Virus record (IMG/VR): IMGVR_UViG_3300027857_000036
Coordinates: 1-42,200 of that record
Origin: a virus
Strand: one strand, 5' to 3'
Length of the DNA: 42,200 nt
Positions 6,727 through 20,581 of this stretch are shown here, one piece after another. The translations under genes and the position numbers were made by a program. Position 1 is the stretch's first letter, and every line of letters starts with the position of its first letter. Below the pieces are notes generated by a model, which worked only from the letters and a program-made list of their open reading frames with translations, searched no databases and was not told the DNA's origin.

Positions 6727-7659
6727 ATGCAAGAGAATTTCTTTGCAGAAGTAACCCCGGACATTACTGATAAGAAGAAATTCTGTCGTTATCACAAATG
6801 GGTACGCGATGAAGACTTTATTAAAGTGACTGCTAAATCGTCAGGTAAAGAATATGATCGGTGCCCAGTTTGTGAGCGAGTTAAATTAGAGAATAAGAAA
6901 ATTCATTTAGCAGATTGGGAAAAAGAGAAGAAAGAAGTTAGTGATTATTATGTCCGTACAGTTTTAAAAAAAGAAAAAAGAACTAAATTAAAGATGGATG
7001 AGTTTCCCTATGAAATGATACAAGCTAAAAAAGCAGCATTAATGATTAGACAAGCTGTTAAGGAATTACAGAAACCATTAAAGAAATGTATACGTCATGG
7101 TGATTTATATGAGAAGGATTGTATTAAATCTGGCAAAACGAAAGAAGGTGTGCAGCTTTGGAAATGTAAAGAGTGTATGAAAGAGTATCATGCTATTCAT
7201 TATGATAAGAATAAAGAAAAAATTAATGCTAAAACTAAAAAATATTTCGCTGATAGACCGGGATTAAAAACATCTTTAAATAAAGCACAAAGATTACGAA
7301 TCAGATTAGATCCTGAGAAATATGAGATATATAAGACTAAAACAAGAGAAAGATTTAAGAAATGGGAAGAAGCCAAACCTGAATTCGCTTTACATAGAAA
7401 TAAAAGATATAAGAGATTAGCTAGAGCAAATTTAAAACATTCTTATGTGAGAAATATTTTAGCTAAAGATACTAATTTAAGAGCAGCTGATTTTCCTATC
7501 TCTTTAGTAGAAACGAAAAGAGTTTGTTTGCAATTAAAACGCGGCATAAAAGCAAATAAAAATCCTTTTTCAAAACAAGATAATGATGTAGAAAAGATTA
7601 CCAAAGAATTAGATGAACAGAAAGAATTAATAACTAAACTTAAGGAGATTAGTAAATGA
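6727..7659 (+). CDS. Zinc-ribbon protein with an internal duplication
   Basis: A 310-residue, very basic protein. Two Cys-pair regions (C-R-Y-H ... C-P-V-C near 21-49; C-I-R-H ... C-K-E-C near 119-147) suggest two zinc ribbons. A 40-residue unit with the pattern YVR-x-L-K ... DFP ... K-R/K ... K occurs at about 73-115 and again at 238-278. The middle is a Lys/Tyr-rich helix. It is probably nucleic-acid binding; an HNH-like nuclease ancestry is possible but I see no HNH core. No clear ribosome binding site. Confidence 0.55.
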   Translation: MQENFFAEVTPDITDKKKFCRYHKWVRDEDFIKVTAKSSGKEYDRCPVCERVKLENKKIHLADWEKEKKEVSDYYVRTVLKKEKRTKLKMDEFPYEMIQAKKAALMIRQAVKELQKPLKKCIRHGDLYEKDCIKSGKTKEGVQLWKCKECMKEYHAIHYDKNKEKINAKTKKYFADRPGLKTSLNKAQRLRIRLDPEKYEIYKTKTRERFKKWEEAKPEFALHRNKRYKRLARANLKHSYVRNILAKDTNLRAADFPISLVETKRVCLQLKRGIKANKNPFSKQDNDVEKITKELDEQKELITKLKEISK

Positions 7660-8871: not shown

Positions 8872-9984
8872 ATGAAAGACAAATCAGCATCACAATTATT
8901 AGCGGAGAATAATATCAAACAGTTTCCAGGGGTAGAAGAAATACAGATTGTGACTGAGAATTTGTCTACTATTAAACCAGAAAAGGTGGAATGGATATGG
9001 CAAGACATTTTAGCCAAAGGAAAAATTACTCTCTTTGCTGGAGAGCCAGGGGTAGGTAAGTCTCAATTATTACTCTATATTGCTTCAGTTTTAAGCAATG
9101 GAGGAAAGTTTCACTTTGCTAAGACGAATGTTCCGGTATCCAAGGTATTACTCATTGCGGGAGAGGATAAAATGAGTGATACCGTAATTCCCCGCTTAAA
9201 GGCATTAGGAGCTGATATAGGCAACATTGAGCATATCAAGGGTATCCGTAGGGTAGATAAGAATAAACGTGACTATTACGAGCCTATTTCGTTAGACAGC
9301 CATATAGCGGACTTAGAGGATATAATCATCAAAGGCGGATATAGTGCAGTTATTATTGATCCTATTTCAAGTTACCTAGGTTCAGCAGATGAAAGTCGGA
9401 ACAAAGAGATTCGGGCTATTCTCGCTCAGATTACGGCTGTCTGTGAAAGGAACAATTTAATCGCTATTCTTAACAGCCATTTTAACAAACCTTCAGGCAA
9501 TATGGCGAAAGGTGCCATTTATCGTGTCATGGGAAGCATTGGGTTCGCTGCTGCTGCACGAATTGTTTATGCCGTGGTAAAAGATCCAGACGAAAAATCG
9601 AGGCGCTTATTGATTCCTATTAAGAATAATATAGCTCAAGATGAGAACGGATTTGCCTATAATATCAAACTTACTAATGTTCAATGTGAAGATTTTGAAA
9701 TTTCTATCGGTAAGGTCGAATGGTTGAATGAAATAGTAACCCGGTCTGCCAATGAAATCCTTAATACTACCCTCGAATCAGTTCCAGCCAAGCTAAATGA
9801 AGCCCAAGATTTCCTTTTGACCCTTTTGAAAGAAGGTTCCGTCCCAGTTTCAAAAATTAGACAACTCGCAGAAGAGCAAGGAATCTCAATCGGGAGATTA
9901 TACGCCGCGAAGGATGCTCTAAAAATCTACGAGGACTCAAATCCTGTCTCCAAAAGAGGCAAGCTTTGGATGCTTCCAGCCTAA
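8872..9984 (+). CDS. RepA/DnaB-like replicative helicase-type ATPase
   Basis: A 370-residue RecA-fold ATPase. Walker A (AGEPGVGKS) lies near residue 57-65 and Walker B (AVIIDPIS) near 164-171. A following NSHFNK segment matches the sensor region of hexameric RepA-type (AAA_25) helicases. The C-terminal 65 residues look like a winged-helix domain (KEGSVPVSKIRQLAEEQG). The ATG at 8872 follows AAGGA; an upstream TTG is less likely. The iteron-like region downstream supports a role in phage DNA replication. Confidence 0.8.
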   Translation: MKDKSASQLLAENNIKQFPGVEEIQIVTENLSTIKPEKVEWIWQDILAKGKITLFAGEPGVGKSQLLLYIASVLSNGGKFHFAKTNVPVSKVLLIAGEDKMSDTVIPRLKALGADIGNIEHIKGIRRVDKNKRDYYEPISLDSHIADLEDIIIKGGYSAVIIDPISSYLGSADESRNKEIRAILAQITAVCERNNLIAILNSHFNKPSGNMAKGAIYRVMGSIGFAAAARIVYAVVKDPDEKSRRLLIPIKNNIAQDENGFAYNIKLTNVQCEDFEISIGKVEWLNEIVTRSANEILNTTLESVPAKLNEAQDFLLTLLKEGSVPVSKIRQLAEEQGISIGRLYAAKDALKIYEDSNPVSKRGKLWMLPA

Positions 9985-19433: not shown

Positions 19434-19440
19434 TACTAGC

Positions 19441-19512
19441 TGGGACGTAGTTCAGCGGTAGAACACTTCCCTGTTAAGGAAGCTGTCCCTGGTTCGATCC
19501 CAGGCGTTCCAG
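19441..19512 (+). tRNA. tRNA-Asn (GUU)
   Basis: A full cloverleaf: acceptor TGGGACG/CGTTCCA with one G-T pair, D-arm GTTC/GAAC with a 7-base loop, anticodon stem CTTCC/GGAAG, loop CTGTTAA with GTT at 34-36, variable loop CTGTC, T-arm CCTGG TTCGATC CCAGG. CCA is not encoded. It lies upstream of two structured RNA segments. Confidence 0.95.
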
Positions 19513-19532
19513 AATGATATATGAAAGTTTAT

Positions 19533-19616
19533 GTAGGTAAGGACTTGTGGCCACGCACATTAATGTCGAGACTTATAGGTAGTGGTTATACGCTGAAATG
19601 GGACAGTCTTACCTAC
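19533..19616 (+). ncRNA. Structured RNA segment after tRNA-Asn
   Basis: Its two ends pair over 12 bp with one bulged G (GTAGGTAAGGACT with AGTCTTACCTAC). Inside are TGTG/CACA and ATA/TAT-type small hairpins. The 3' end reads TACCTAC-C-CCA, which superficially resembles a tRNA acceptor end, but there is no T-arm. It may be a separate small RNA or a domain of the large RNA that follows. Confidence 0.55.
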
Positions 19617-19620
19617 CCCA

Positions 19621-19755
19621 ATTAAATGCTGTAGTGTTCTGTGGGGTATAGTAATGTTAAGTTAGGTGAACTAAGGTAAAGTTAATGCTGTAATGTGATG
19701 TCGGCTTTTGTTATGTGATGCGCTGATAGGTAAAGTAAGGTTTAATAATTTAATG
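19621..19755 (+). repeat. GT-rich degenerate repeats, block 5
   Basis: Two units containing AACTAAGGTAAAGTTAAT and GGTAAAGTAAGGTTTAATAATTTAA, between the tRNA-side hairpin and the large RNA. Confidence 0.65.
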
Positions 19756-20360
19756 CTTACAGAAGAGAACGTGTAGTGCGATCGACTACAGGGTTTCACT
19801 CCTTATTTTGATTTCCCTAAGGCCGCTTCTTCTGTGAGCGCCAATGCAAATACGACAACAGCAGGCGGACAGTGACGCCGGTGTGAGCAGTGAGAGGGGA
19901 AGCGTGGGATAAACCTCTATAGTGAGCGGATAAGTGACCACAATCGCGAAAGACTTCCAAGCTCAGCATTAGGATAATACGTGGTGACTATATTCCTAAC
20001 TCGTAGCATGCTAATACCAAGTGAGTGCAATTCTCACCTGTTGTCACTAAAATAGTTTACGGTCACATGAACGTGTCGGACGAACGCCGACGGGGTACCT
20101 GATAGATACTAATCCTTTATTGTCCTCCCTAAAGCCGTATGTGACCACCAGTTTGAGGTGGAGTAAAGCGACTGAACAGGGCGCTAACGGGTTGCTAGTC
20201 AACCTAATGTCGGGAGTCCGAAGGGAGAATTACCCCTACTCTGCCTCCAAGTTTATGGTACTCATTAACGTTGAGGGTGGCGTCAATCCTCGTATTAGGT
20301 AAAGAAATCCTGCCGCGGCAAAAGGATGTTCTGGACTAATATAAAAATCCAGTGAGTACC
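19756..20360 (+). ncRNA. Large ornate non-coding RNA candidate (GOLLD/ROOL-like by context)
   Basis: About 600 bases with no credible gene, visibly richer in G+C than its flanks, and packed with complementary segments: 19756-19766 with 19828-19838 (11 bp), 19772-19777 with 19785-19790, 19969-19974 with 19994-19999, 20021-20025 with 20033-20037, 20061-20068 with 20139-20146 (8 bp), 20075-20079 with 20087-20091, 20190-20194 with 20200-20204, 20257-20266 with 20351-20360 (10 bp) and 20307-20311 with 20323-20327. The length and the position near a tRNA in a phage match the known GOLLD and ROOL RNAs, which form large multimeric RNA assemblies. Membership in either family, or a new one, is unproven. 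Confidence 0.7.
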
Positions 20361-20434
20361 TCCAAGTTTTTGTGCAGTATAGTGTCGTGTACTTTTGTTT
20401 AGTCCAGTGTAGTAATGTAATGTAAGGGTTTTAA
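20361..20434 (+). repeat. GT-rich degenerate repeat, block 6
   Basis: One unit (AGTGTCGTGT, AGTGTAGTAATGTAATG) ending GTAAGGGTTTTAA directly before the ATG at 20435, again supplying the ribosome binding site. Confidence 0.7.
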
Positions 20435-20581
20435 ATGATTGAACATGAAATAGAAGAATGTAATTCATGCGCTGGTGAAGGAATGATATATATTCCAAGA
20501 TCAGACAGAACTTGCCGATGTTGTCATATGGAAGAGAAGATAAAACAATGCAAGCAATGTCATGGTAAGGGTTTTGTATGA
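20435..20581 (+). CDS. DnaJ-type zinc-finger mini-protein
   Basis: 48 residues with C-N-S-C-A-G-E-G, C-R-C-C and C-K-Q-C-H-G-K-G-F, the C-x2-C-x-G-x-G pattern of DnaJ zinc fingers without any J domain. It is first in a chain of overlapping small genes; its TGA overlaps the next ATG. Confidence 0.6.
   Translation: MIEHEIEECNSCAGEGMIYIPRSDRTCRCCHMEEKIKQCKQCHGKGFV

Follow-up and report, generated by a model that had tools for sequence, protein, structure and literature searches.

A row of putative tRNA-shaped small RNAs beside a phage tRNA-Asn gene and an apparently new family of tRNA-like RNAs in environmental viruses

The tRNA region of phage T4 gives rise to two stable RNAs of unknown role, RNAs C and D (species 1 and 2) (PMC3014915, PMC9697503, PMC12685909). 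Other phage RNAs of unknown function, GOLLD and ROOL, lie near tRNA islands, and GOLLD can carry tRNAs in its linker (PMC12286853). To these we compared a tRNA-associated locus and the RNA family found through it, defined below as class A. In RNAC (139 nt; our locus L035) the T-arm adjoins the 3' end and a long middle departs from the tRNA plan, and in class A, too, a long middle is followed by a T-arm close to the 3' terminus, with members beside phage tRNA genes. RNAC differs from class A in its canonical T-loop UUCGAAU, in the lack of the D-loop GACAGUGA and in the imperfect acceptor-like pairing of its ends. T4 has only two such RNAs, in a single phage group. Inspection revealed no sequence kinship of RNAC with class A, and no sequence or structural homology of RNAC or RNAD to it (T-loop and D-arm differ). 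By analogy, RNAs C and D are the closest precedent, and class A resembles RNAC in plan, which does not make them one family.

The locus lies in a 42.2-kb stretch of an IMG/VR virus record (the window, meaning the whole stretch analysed), which encodes a P22-type portal and terminase. The first-pass annotation had described positions 19756-20360 as a gene-free, G+C-rich segment with many self-complementary pairs downstream of a tRNA-Asn gene, and had read it as one ornate non-coding RNA of about 600 nt, either a GOLLD or ROOL member or a new class. The coordinates were borne out, as was the tRNA-Asn gene upstream. Between 19514 and 20435 we found no convincing gene, the only frames being a 60-aa frame starting with TTG and an overlapping 67-aa antisense frame, neither credible, and the G+C content was 0.43-0.48 versus ~0.30-0.39 across most of the flanks. 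The inverted repeats were also real, including the 10-bp pairing that joins 20257 to 20360 (one G-U). However, the element exceeds the limits first given to it, since its first unit starts at 19533 and its last ends at 20364. A structured non-coding RNA element in a phage setting and associated with a tRNA is therefore retained, whereas the single RNA of ~600 nt is not, as the helices fall into six separate units; "new class" proved right in spirit, but not for one large RNA.

Six tandem units, each closed by an acceptor-like stem of 7-12 bp, span 19533-20364 (Table 1). An encoded NCCA stands directly 3' of the stem in five units, and ACTA in the sixth. The unit f repeat 20257-64/20353-60 lengthens to the 10-bp pairing mentioned above, which is the acceptor-like stem of that unit. 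A perfect or near-perfect 8-bp stem followed by NCCA occurred four times in the 922 nt of the region, versus nine times in the remaining 41 kb of the window. Part of unit b (19767-19825) recurs in unit d (20069-20137), with 28 nt matching at 75% and a further co-linear match of 12 nt. Of 500 shuffles, 4 reached this alignment score, and a 5-bp hairpin stem within the duplication is changed on both sides, from GTAGT/ACTAC to GTCGG/CCGAC. These data suggest that the region probably encodes about six distinct small RNAs of tRNA shape, lined up next to a genuine tRNA gene. For units a, b, d, e and f no homologues were found in the loci searched, which makes them less secure; their status rests on the stems, the NCCA ends and the b/d duplication. 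Patterns built on the motif common to b and d returned three matches in unrelated sequence, which we judged to be chance. The C-poor, GTAATG-rich linkers at 19622-19754 and 20365-20435, which flank tRNA-like units, resemble each other.

Table 1. Features of the tRNA-Asn region of the window; units a to f are candidate tRNA-like RNAs
Feature	Position	Strand	Inverted repeat	3' stem strand and end	Details and evidence
tRNA-Asn (GTT)	19440-19513	+			Canonical, head of the array; ARAGORN; Rfam RF00005, 64.8 bits
Unit a, tRNA-like	19533-19620	+	19533-41/19608-16	19608-19616+CCCA	Stem GTAGGTAAG/CTTACCTAC; leader AAGTTTAT; inverted repeat, stem+NCCA scans
C-poor linker, units a-b	19622-19754	+			No unit recognised in sequence
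Unit b, tRNA-like, paralogue of unit d	19755-19843	+	19755-66/19828-39	19828-19839+GCCA	Stem GCTTACAGAAGA/TCTTCTGTGAGC; repeats, shuffle test, stem+NCCA scan
Unit c, class A tRNA-like	19854-20049	+	19854-61/20038-45	20038-20045+ACTA	Acceptor GACAACAG/CTGTTGTC; family covariation; full-length homologues in L150, L151 and L146
Unit d, tRNA-like, paralogue of unit b	20061-20150	+	20061-68/20139-46	20139-20146+ACCA	Stem GGTCACAT/ATGTGACC; leader AGTTTAC; repeats, shuffle test, stem+NCCA scans
Unit e, tRNA-like, weaker than the others	20157-20249	+		20239-20245+TCCA	Stem GGTGGAG/CTCTGCC (two G-U); sequence, fold
Unit f, tRNA-like	20257-20364	+	20257-64/20353-60	20353-20360+TCCA	Stem GGTACTCA/TGAGTACC; leader AAGTTTAT; inverted repeat, stem+NCCA scans

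A leader (A)GTTTA(T/C) stands directly before the G of several units. The same word, AGTTTATG, was found 3' of real tRNA-Asn genes in two relatives (L002 and L014), and it punctuates similar arrays in three further loci (L120, L064 and L053), so that the common leader word looks like a processing context used by units and tRNA genes alike. A scan for leader, stem and NCCA together gave a mild overall enrichment (25 versus 3-15 in controls) and serves as a list of candidates, not as proof by itself. No outstanding promoter or terminator signal was seen.

The same region could instead be a single ornate RNA of ~600 nt, be it a GOLLD or ROOL that has diverged or an RNA of a new nanocage type whose subdomains resemble tRNA, an explanation to which we assign little probability. 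Its size, phage setting and closeness to a tRNA would fit (PMC12286853), and the six units are contiguous. However, a search of the window and the region against Rfam 15 with E values up to 10 gave tRNA as the sole credible match: GOLLD and ROOL had no covariance-model match either at the gathering score or at E up to 10, and the GOLLD, ROOL, OLE and HEARO models proposed in the first-pass annotation as a check gave zero matches in all. On loci carrying family members, only tRNAs reached the Rfam cut-offs. Folding stability gives no support, because the energies were unremarkable against shuffles (z = -1.1 for 19756-20375; z = +1.35 for the wider 922 nt), and unlike folding energy, the arrangement of stems and NCCA exceeds chance. 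GOLLD is one RNA of ~800 nt with a conserved 3' half and ROOL, typified by a homo-oligomeric RNA cage, belongs to the same 600-800 nt size range, whereas many small independent units are seen here, most with an NCCA end of their own. Full-length homologues of unit c stand alone, without the flanking 400 nt, which argues against a single large RNA, and none of the homologues found keeps the whole 600 nt. Relatives found through their terminase (L002 and L003) had no 600-nt homologue, yet they carried single tRNA-like units. In phage isolates and plasmids, similarity searches with the region or with class A pieces returned only tRNA-Asn and chance matches.

Class A was first seen among the terminase-found relatives, which were scanned for a T-arm plus acceptor. 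We define it by a 7-8 bp acceptor, a 2-nt link, a D-loop GAYAGNGR and a T-loop T[GT]YRANY abutting the acceptor. Unit c fits this definition and is the only unit of the window in which acceptor, D-arm and T-arm were found in order with a consensus T-loop. Its T-loop TGCAATT recurs in L003, L013 (twice) and L014, and its D-loop GACAGTGA in the same three loci; the stems of acceptor, D-arm and T-arm carry compensatory differences among these RNAs. When IMG/VR was scanned for exact copies of the D-arm 18-mer, 80 stretches were found versus about two expected by chance (our estimate), and pattern scans with D-loop plus T-loop found 37 and 22 stretches. We then asked for a 7-bp acceptor exactly 2 bases 5' of the D-stem and a 5-bp T-stem abutting the acceptor. 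Both were in exact register at 56 of the 77 D-arm sites whose downstream sequence was long enough, compared to none of 3850 shuffles, and all T-loops at the 56 sites followed the tRNA consensus (canonical TTCGACT included), although the loop was not required by the test.

In a 32-sequence alignment built from the two flanking halves, with the inner domain left out, 99.5% of the cells were paired, and of the 18 pairs 15 had double changes. The covariation score was 0.76, compared to 0.18 for shuffled and at most 0.13 for slid alignments; because the search partly fixes the D-arm sequence and membership demands pairing, the shuffle and control counts are the fair measures. The first-pass annotation had held that a lack of compensatory changes would count against a structured RNA, and for the central unit c the family covariation is very strong. 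A scan with the T-arm only gave 106 stretches; among them the D-arm turned up again, independently, at new loci, with the D-loop variants GACAGCGA, GACAGTGG, GACAGAGA, GATAGTGA and GATAGCGA, and other hits were ordinary tRNA genes with an identical T-loop. In L180 and L174, the T-loop of seemingly ordinary tRNA genes is TGCAATT or TGCAACT, with a G at position 55; loops of this type are therefore not exclusive to class A.

Altogether we collected 99 distinct strict class A members from ~95 IMG/VR loci, compared to none for five control D-loop motifs. The D-arm 18-mer gave 13 matches in a genome scan, of which about four had the full architecture, all in metagenome-assembled genomes. The contigs with class A-like RNAs (L139, L140, L143 and L144, assigned to Desulfarculus, Planctomycetota, Chloroflexi and Legionella) are probably prophages or misbinned phages. 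No convincing class A match was found in 50,697 phage records. Rfam likewise gave no convincing match to class A, and neither Rfam nor ARAGORN called the window units or made a call that overlapped any class A member in 20 further loci. A literature search conducted mostly outside subscription journals turned up no account of a family of this kind. Judging by these scans, class A is widespread in environmental phages and apparently an RNA family new to science.

The acceptor of class A (7-8 bp, free in sequence) is followed by the linker CG, a D-stem of 4-6 bp that covaries and bears the loop GACAGUGA, an inner domain of 29-254 nt in the place of the anticodon arm, one A, a 5-bp T-stem with the loop UGCAAUU, the acceptor strand and a variable tail. 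NCCA is encoded by some members only. We hold this anatomy with high confidence. The inner domains have no common arm and are of very different kinds, and subfamilies of them are shared while the acceptors differ. The inner domain of unit c measures 141 nt. Full-length homologues of unit c (E = 5e-17 to 1e-14) share CGUGGGAUAA and ACCACA with it, and an inner hairpin stem is kept in the four RNAs with both strands changed (AGAGG/CCUCU, UGCGU/ACGCA, GGCGG/CCGUC and GAUGA/UCAUC). This stem was read by hand, as the automatic four-member alignment shifts it by one column in two rows. The loop GUGG and a downstream CCAC, whose pairing bases are invariant, could form a pseudoknot.

These data bear on the idea that the units are decayed tRNA genes, functionless remnants of ordinary tRNAs, which we consider very unlikely. 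Decay would suit the position in a tRNA array, the acceptor-like stems and NCCA ends that have been kept, and the five units without detected homologues. Across its 99 distinct sequences, however, class A shows loops that do not vary and stems that change in a compensatory way, and the doubly changed inner-domain stem has been kept between distant phages; the covariation already refutes decay for class A.

Class A shares with tRNA (RF00005) the acceptor, the 2-nt link, the D-arm, the T-arm with its 5-bp stem and 7-nt loop, in part the 3' NCCA, and the location in tRNA arrays. It differs from tRNA in having no evident anticodon arm (5 bp with a 7-nt loop), none being seen by inspection and folding in the members inspected, and in escaping both ARAGORN and Rfam. 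The members might nonetheless be working tRNAs whose long middle, as an intron or insertion, is cut out to give a tRNA able to decode, and the tRNA order of their arms, together with some canonical T-loops (TTCGACT), speaks for this. We give it only a slight chance: the shortest members, with a middle of 29-44 nt, still have no evident anticodon arm, the inner domains differ widely in kind, the usual GG is missing from the D-loop, and Rfam shows no group I or II intron. A tRNA-like end of acceptor and T-arm that encloses a long non-tRNA region is also the plan of tmRNA. However, tmRNA is not known to have a paired D-arm, whereas the D-stem of class A is paired and covaries, and neither ARAGORN nor Rfam called a tmRNA. 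The class A T-arm also recalls a hairpin of twister-sister (RF02681; GCCGGUGCAA..CCGGC), a candidate rejected at 14.2 bits, far below the cut-off of 34, with the rest of the motif absent.

Within 300 nt of class A members we counted 25 tRNAs, compared to 3.4 expected, and nine members had a tRNA on the same strand within 40 nt. The member in L131 lies 8 nt 3' of a tRNA-Pro and 7 nt 5' of a tRNA-Met, and the member in L148 has a tRNA no more than 7 nt downstream. Members occur in tRNA arrays or alone between genes; many have no tRNA called nearby, and those of L146, L150 and L151 stand alone between protein genes. The neighbouring genes are diverse, with no conserved partner that would point to a function. 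A single-strand DNA-binding protein (SSB) gene, the nearest upstream gene in 7 of 73 cases, is the sole mild recurrence. A packaging or virion RNA like phi29 pRNA, suggested by the closeness of several members to terminase or portal genes (terminase in the window, L146, L151 and the terminase-seeded loci), is the least likely reading, since that association is largely due to terminase seeding, and where the RNA alone led to the locus, a terminase gene came first downstream in only 3 of 71 cases, among diverse neighbours.

The explanation that we favour, as a fairly probable one, is a tandem array processed by tRNA maturation. About six tRNA-like RNAs would be co-transcribed with tRNA-Asn and cut apart by the host tRNA maturation machinery. 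RNase E prefers A/U-rich single strands, and RNase P favours a U before G. Cleavage of the RNase E type may thus fall within the AGUUUAU leaders, RNase P would act at the 5' G, and the 3' CCA would be encoded or added. The products would be stable and accumulate as RNAs of tRNA shape whose inner domains vary; in class A, to which unit c belongs, a tRNA shell (acceptor, 2-base link, D-arm, T-arm and invariant loops) bears a variable inner domain with a structure of its own.

We tentatively suggest that the shell may serve as a processing and stability tag for a stable, trans-acting small RNA, which would act either as a scaffold that presents its inner domain to a target or as a decoy for host factors that bind or cut tRNAs. 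Since the inner domains are structured and conserved in their own right, we incline to the scaffold, whether or not the RNA is also a decoy. A role in decoding is unlikely: the acceptor stems have no sequence in common, and there is no evident canonical anticodon arm. It is conceivable, though doubtful, that phages possess a general natural tRNA-scaffold platform, in which a conserved shell matured by the host would carry swappable inner domains. Such RNAs, arrayed with real tRNAs and spread among unrelated phages, would act in trans in regulation or against host defence.

A structured RNA family present in ~95 environmental virus loci, and absent from Rfam and from the isolates searched, would be a common component of phage tRNA regions that has escaped notice because it is passed over by tRNA finders. 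The orphan RNAs C and D of T4 may gain a wider context from it, and the question of function becomes testable. If the shell is a maturation tag for swappable domains, it would be a natural counterpart of the tRNA scaffold of biotechnology and a place to seek phage regulatory or anti-defence RNAs.

Further tRNA-like RNAs were seen in the same loci. A "class B" at four loci (L013 1032-1149; L015 9623-9733; L053 minus strand 7372-7481, reverse-complement coordinates; L055 11271-11386) has an acceptor with ACCA or GCCA and a D-arm-like hairpin; at three of these loci, GATGTAG precedes the 3' strand of the acceptor. A possible third class (L120 ~189-252 and L015 ~9537-9619) has GGCCGACGATAC at the 5' end; its 3' end is of the GCC type, with GGGAAAATA ahead of it and ACCA or GCCA after it. 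Long tRNA-like genes with the canonical T-loop TTCAAAT, missed by ARAGORN, lie at L012 5189-5309 and L014 9768-9956 and are perhaps tRNAs with inserts. Additional single units with 7-8 bp stems, most with NCCA and unlike any class named here, were observed at L002 9880-9965, at L152 3683-3743 and, on the minus strand (reverse-complement coordinates), at L114 5042-5124 and 5561-5644 and at L064 ~2034-2147.
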